Below are positions 6,116-6,190 of a DNA stretch of 64,000 nucleotides, in pieces. The stretch lies in the IMG/VR virus record IMGVR_UViG_3300008267_000003, positions 1 to 64,000 of that record; one strand, 5' to 3'. Position numbers and translations under genes: made by a program. Origin of the DNA: a virus. How positions within the stretch are numbered: the first letter of the stretch is position 1; every line of letters starts with the position of its first letter. The notes below the pieces were generated by a model that was given only the letters and a program-made list of their open reading frames with translations, had not been told where the DNA came from and did not search any database.

Positions 6116-6190
6116 ATGGCTTGGACTACACCTTCAGCACAAGATATGCGTTTTGGTTTTGAAATCACCATGTATATTGCAAATCGTTAA
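6116..6190 (+). CDS. pqqA: PqqA-like precursor peptide of the cofactor PQQ
   Basis: The 24-residue peptide begins MAWTTP and continues [14 protein letters not shown], matching bacterial PqqA peptides in length and in the FGFEVTMY core. Its Glu16 and Tyr20 keep the E-x3-Y spacing of the two residues that PqqE joins, with PqqD, to make pyrroloquinoline quinone. AGGAG (6105-6109) is six bases from this ATG; the ATG at 6111 is too close and gives an unrelated product. PqqA is the consumed substrate of the pathway, so extra copies could raise PQQ supply for host alcohol, methanol or sugar dehydrogenases. No other pqq gene is in the window. It lies directly before the tmRNA. Confidence 0.85.
   Translation: [24 protein letters not shown]

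Follow-up and report, generated by a model that had tools for sequence, protein, structure and literature searches.

The short open reading frame (ORF) at positions 6116 to 6190 of the DNA analysed here is, judged from its sequence, a genuine phage pqqA gene, encoding the peptide precursor of PQQ. This DNA, hereafter the window, is a stretch of 64,000 nucleotides from a virus (positions 1 to 64,000 of record IMGVR_UViG_3300008267_000003). We consider it quite probable that the phage supplies this consumed precursor and that host PqqB-E would make PQQ from it for dehydrogenases, chiefly methanol dehydrogenase.

Identification of the pqqA gene

The gene and its elements are as follows.

6105..6109, + strand: Shine-Dalgarno sequence AGGAG, 6 nt from the pqqA ATG; GGAG kept in 8 of 8 aligned sequences
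6116..6190, + strand: pqqA, 24 codons, ATG to TAA, 75 bases
6161-6163, + strand: Glu16 codon of pqqA
6173-6175, + strand: Tyr20 codon of pqqA

The first-pass annotation had described a 24-codon gene with a well-spaced ribosome site and the Glu16 and Tyr20 pair, and all of these elements were located in the sequence. The predicted peptide has a W-x-x-P start and an R-x-G-F-E-x3-Y core, in which E-x3-Y is the pair cross-linked by PqqE. Its proposed identity as PqqA was upheld by profile searches, both family cut-offs being clearly exceeded: Pfam PF08042 gave 39.4 bits (E 5.7e-10; cut-off 21.1), and the NCBIfam equivalog TIGR02107 gave 38.4 bits (E 7.6e-10; cut-off 20). An additional profile, made from bacterial PqqA peptides alone, was run on six-frame fragments of the window, where 843 ORFs with 20 aa or more provide the background for the question of a chance ORF. 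The pqqA frame scored 65.5 bits (E 2.8e-19), and the runner-up fragment in the window scored 5.3 bits. No second PqqA copy was found in the 162-kb record.

Genomic context of pqqA

The source record is a virus contig of 162,011 bases. Genes for a gp32-like SSB, baseplate wedge and hub, tail tube, head closure, and DNA end protector proteins are present in the window, and this gene set indicates that it belongs to a T4-like phage and not to a bacterial contig. No tyrosine-recombinase integrase family was found in the record, and a nucleotide search of phage records with the first 20 kb of the window gave no match. Three other regions were noted by eye. Tandem ORFs with RCC1-like repeats (LWAWGxNxxGQLG) at 36906-42125 apparently encode phage structural or tail-fibre proteins; three long ORFs at 55624-60930, in which a repeat of about VVSTYSLVYTxxxAYxGGVLAPNGDIHFVP occurs many times, likely encode a tail fibre or adhesin; and adjoining cytidylyltransferase-, sugar kinase-, and epimerase-like ORFs at 47302-49170 resemble an ADP-heptose synthesis set.

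The features surrounding pqqA are listed below.

5037..5996, + strand: DUF932 protein, the gene preceding pqqA and a synteny marker
6044..6073, + strand: promoter-like TTGATA-18-TATAAT (11/12), upstream of pqqA
6206..6453, + strand: permuted (two-piece) tmRNA (ARAGORN limits 6176-6544; RF01850 limits 6139-6516)
6492..6515, + strand: intrinsic-terminator-like stem-loop and T run, 3' of the tmRNA
6542..6979, + strand: rubrerythrin (PF02915, 88.7 bits), the gene after the tmRNA and a recurrent neighbour of phage pqqA

The tmRNA scored 169.2 bits with RF01850 and 147.7 bits with RF04321 (gathering score 47). Its acceptor piece comes first, with the CCA end at 6266-6268, and is followed by the coding piece, with the tag ANDSEYALAA at 6421-6453. 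Permuted tmRNAs of this betaproteobacterial type occur in T4-like phages, and the tags of the relatives vary (ANDSEYALAA, ANDEQFALAA, ANDERFALAA, DSSYEYALAA, and others). Two promoter-like sites were found in the 1.2 kb scanned, compared with 2.4 expected by chance, so that the site upstream of pqqA is statistically weak by itself; both of its hexamers are kept in the near-identical relative L452, most of the site is kept in L373, and it is weaker elsewhere, with poor conservation in several relatives. The stem-loop at 6492-6515 is the probable end of the pqqA-tmRNA unit. Because the promoter-like site and the terminator-like hairpin enclose pqqA and the tmRNA alone, the arrangement suggests that the two are transcribed as one unit.

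Conservation and organization of viral pqqA loci

Viral pqqA loci were collected with degenerate DNA patterns for the PqqA core, each of which matched at least 120 viral contigs. A total of 232 viral loci were read, and the prevalence of pqqA derived from these pattern scans is a lower bound. As the patterns fix Glu and Tyr, the loci obtained with them were left out of the conservation claim, for which we used an unbiased sample of 80 relatives of the window DUF932 protein and 80 relatives of the window rubrerythrin, chosen without regard to PqqA. PqqA was found within the DNA surrounding 9 of the 80 DUF932 relatives and 25 of the 80 rubrerythrin relatives. All of these matches were intact and scored at least 47 bits, and no degenerate or intermediate PqqA forms were seen in this neighbour-chosen sample. 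Across 21 distinct DNA sequences, the columns for Glu, Tyr, Pro, Asp, Arg, Gly, and both core Phe were invariant; the conservation of Glu and Tyr in related phages, on which the first-pass reading depended, was thus recovered in a sample drawn independently of PqqA. The same 21 sequences gave a pS of 0.52 and a pN of 0.083 (pN/pS 0.16; dN/dS approximately 0.10), indicating at the codon level that phage pqqA is under strong purifying selection. A ribosome-site-like sequence, in the sense of a loose match, was present upstream of 217 of 228 viral copies among the matches listed. Codon-level selection and the ribosome site support translation, and phage PqqA is probably produced and used.

None of the 232 viral loci among the matches listed had pqqB, C, D, or E beside pqqA (mostly 4-14 kb around each), whereas 88 of 120 bacterial loci with a similar core had pqqB-E there. 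In 23 whole phage records, that of the window included, neither PqqE nor the PQQ-dehydrogenase repeat (PQQ_2) was found above the family cut-off. Weak radical-SAM matches were present in some large phages, with none in the record of the window. These results support the earlier statement that the phage brings only the consumed substrate of the pathway, its record being without PqqE above cut-off and without PQQ-dehydrogenase.

Of 236 viral loci among the matches listed, 33 have a tmRNA no more than 200 bp from pqqA, and a further 16 have tRNA genes within 600 bp. In most of the tmRNA-linked loci the tmRNA precedes pqqA; in the window and in its closest relatives it follows pqqA. Many of these loci form one syntenic block (DUF932-like gene, tmRNA, pqqA, and cell wall hydrolase), suggesting that they largely represent one T4-like lineage and not independent events. 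Grouping of the loci by shared ORFs merged nearly all of them, so the number of independent acquisitions is not claimed. Rubrerythrin was near pqqA in about 25-30 of 232 viral loci among the matches listed. In small phage genomes, pqqA is often alone and on the strand opposite to its neighbours.

Phage hosts and missing annotation

Searches of 50,697 phage records with each of three PqqA queries returned an identical set of 12 records: nine Methylophilales phages, ctXG6705 (an environmental phage), and two contigs that are probably bacterial and mislabelled. The latter, the Acinetobacter 'phage' MD-2021a records, were rejected as probable bacterial chromosome; the example at CAKLQF020000010.1 104204-112275 (L126) carries a complete pqqA-E cluster and a polyphosphate kinase gene (ppk). 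Among the 50,697 records, PqqA matches with a known phage host were thus confined to the nine Methylophilales phage records. Before MEP401 and MEP402, the OM43 phage isolates were Venkman, MEP301, and Melnitz only, representing three distinct viral groups (PMC10580990). A PqqA ORF was detected in all five OM43 isolates named in that paper (Melnitz, Venkman, MEP301, MEP401, and MEP402; PMC10580990) and also in the freshwater phage P19250A, which has a Methylophilaceae host.

In none of the ten GenBank phage records that contain a PqqA ORF is pqqA annotated, in keeping with the earlier remark that the gene is too short for standard gene calling. The pqqA position is without any annotated gene in P19250A, Venkman, MEP301, MEP401, and MEP402, and in Melnitz-1, Melnitz-2, and ctXG6705 (loci L122, L124, and L557) a 'hypothetical protein' is placed over it on the wrong strand, which is likely an annotation error. 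Phage PqqA is also unmentioned in the OM43 phage papers on Melnitz and on MEP401/402.

The closest isolate to the window was Melnitz by the DUF932 protein (57%) and Caulobacter phage Cr30 by a baseplate protein (40%). The best match of the window tmRNA DNA was to Thauera, at 81% over 64 bases, and the window rubrerythrin was at best 73% identical to copies in order-level genomes and up to 73-74% identical to copies in bacterial genomes. Permuted tmRNAs are rare in the order containing Limnohabitans, where 5 of 120 genomes exceeded the cut-off. Our guess, which we hold to be fairly probable, is that the host of the window phage is a betaproteobacterium that makes PQQ and is most likely methylotrophic.

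The core genome of Methylophilaceae includes PQQ biosynthesis and XoxF, and members of this family have 3-12 pqqA copies compared with a single pqqBCDE set (PMC4109929). PqqA was found in 32 of the 120 sampled genomes of the Limnohabitans order, and 24 of these 32 had two or more copies. Given these multiple host copies, an extra pqqA would appear to be a dosage device that such hosts use themselves.

Proposed role of phage PqqA

In the proposed mechanism, pqqA and the adjoining permuted tmRNA would be transcribed after infection from one promoter to one terminator. Host PqqD would bind the phage PqqA, host PqqE would cross-link it at Glu16 and Tyr20, and host PqqF/G, PqqB, and PqqC would process the cross-linked peptide to PQQ. 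Because each PQQ formed consumes one PqqA, an additional copy under phage control could sustain or raise PQQ while host mRNA fails. The PQQ would support periplasmic dehydrogenases (in a methylotrophic host, chiefly the methanol dehydrogenase XoxF/MxaF), and their activity would contribute to the energy supply for phage replication. All cultured pqqA carriers infect methylotrophs.

Overexpression of pqqAB in Acetobacter increased PQQ by 29%, compared with an eightfold increase upon overexpression of the whole operon (PMC7936290). Single-gene overexpression in Gluconobacter, including that of pqqA, gave varied PQQ levels as cited in the same paper, and pqqB ranked above pqqA in single-gene work (PMC7936290). 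The large advantage of the whole operon over the partial pathway, together with the rank of pqqB, implies that PqqA alone may not be limiting. Since the gain from the partial pathway was small relative to that from the operon, the effect of phage PqqA may be to maintain PQQ during host shut-off and not to boost it greatly.

The presence of an unannotated pqqA in every OM43 phage isolate found suggests that the gene is probably a common way for OM43 viruses to keep host methanol oxidation going. On balance, we also favour the broader view that this substrate-only gene is a general feature of phages infecting PQQ-dependent methylotrophs, and possibly of those infecting other betaproteobacteria that make PQQ, that at about 24 codons it has largely escaped annotation, and that one T4-like lineage expresses it as a unit with a phage tmRNA.

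Alternative explanations

The Rfam beta_tmRNA match begins at 6139, within the pqqA ORF, as would be expected if a stretch of tmRNA precursor read as PqqA by accident. The probability of this explanation, or of a chance ORF, is negligible given the three profile scores (39.4, 38.4, and 65.5 bits) and the conservation at the codon level; moreover, most relatives have the tmRNA upstream of pqqA or have none. We therefore ruled out a tmRNA artefact or chance on the basis of tmRNA placement in the relatives, selection, and the bacterial-only profile. A real gene could still be a passenger, carried from the host chromosome on a mobile tRNA/tmRNA cassette and useless to the phage, and the loci with a nearby tmRNA (33 of 236) or tRNA gene (16 more, again among the matches listed) are compatible with this idea. 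However, it is disfavoured by the selection result (dN/dS approximately 0.1) and the retained ribosome sites, pqqA recurs across phage types and genome places, and in Venkman and P19250A it occupies an intergenic gap by itself, no tRNA being listed near it. We regard the passenger explanation as very improbable.

If the peptide is made, it could instead act as a decoy or inhibitor by binding to PqqD/PqqE of the host, or to some other protein that recognizes peptides, thereby blocking PQQ synthesis or another radical-SAM pathway. No maturation gene accompanies phage pqqA, and a 2024 survey of ocean data linked a PqqA-like family of RiPPs to the co-expression of defence systems and to phages, in a correlative manner only (PMC11118758). 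A decoy would not need to retain the cross-linked residues, yet neither Glu nor Tyr varies in the unbiased sample, and the window peptide is still identical to bacterial substrates at 20-21 of 24 positions, which makes a decoy quite improbable. PQQ may also be made for a role outside the dehydrogenases, for instance as a scavenger of reactive oxygen in infected cells. The rubrerythrin that adjoins the pqqA-tmRNA unit of the window fits this idea, as do its presence near pqqA in the 25-30 or so listed viral loci and the 25 of 80 phage rubrerythrins with PqqA nearby. However, just 30 of 232 pqqA-bearing viral loci among the matches listed have rubrerythrin, and the obligate methylotrophy of the hosts of the cultured carriers points to methanol oxidation; we consider an antioxidant role unlikely. 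Because of the evidence against each of the decoy, antioxidant, and passenger explanations, all three are ranked below supply of the PQQ precursor to the host pathway.

Comparison with known systems

Phage PqqA resembles bacterial PqqA (PF08042, TIGR02107; e.g., from Limnobacter and other Burkholderiales) in length, in the W-x-x-P start and R-x-G-F-E-x3-Y core, and in both cross-linked residues; the nearest bacterial peptide found shares 21 of 24 residues with that of the window. In contrast to bacterial pqqA, which is mostly beside pqqB-E, phage pqqA stands alone, in the window next to a tmRNA. The OM43/LD28 phages Melnitz, Venkman, MEP301, MEP401, MEP402, and P19250A likewise carry an orphan pqqA, 63-71% identical to that of the window over the aligned part. 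Unlike in the window, no tmRNA adjoins it: the Melnitz gene is beside a tRNA-Leu, and those of the small phages are in an intergenic gap.

Phage PqqA itself is already known from Lake Baikal, a report that the first-pass annotation does not mention. According to Coutinho et al. 2020 (PMC7678222), phage population VP_266 has PqqA alongside methanol dehydrogenase, and this PqqA was proposed to raise PQQ for methanol oxidation. VP_266, assigned to Methylophilaceae there, shares with the window the presence of PqqA in a T4-like aquatic phage; it encodes a methanol dehydrogenase (PMC7678222), whereas the record of the window has no PQQ-dehydrogenase match. We found no tmRNA link, selection test, or PqqA survey in the accessible part of that paper (PMC7678222). 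In addition, pqqA is among the virus-encoded genes listed for reservoir sediments (PMC13188868). We found no earlier report that pqqA in its orphan, substrate-only form is prevalent and conserved across many phages, that every named OM43 isolate has it without annotation, or that pqqA and the tmRNA are linked as a unit, and we regard these points as new. If the proposed role is true, a small gene that evades annotation connects infection by phages with the oxidation of methanol by methylotrophs that are abundant in marine and fresh waters, and cultured phage-host pairs already exist (Melnitz, Venkman, MEP301, MEP401, and MEP402).

Phage auxiliary metabolic genes usually encode enzymes. Like these genes in general, pqqA is a host-like metabolic gene in a phage, located in a genuine phage genome and maintained by selection (dN/dS approximately 0.10), but its product is a consumed ribosomal substrate. 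That the gene supplies a peptide to be consumed, and not an enzyme, suggests a search of other phages for RiPP and cofactor precursors.
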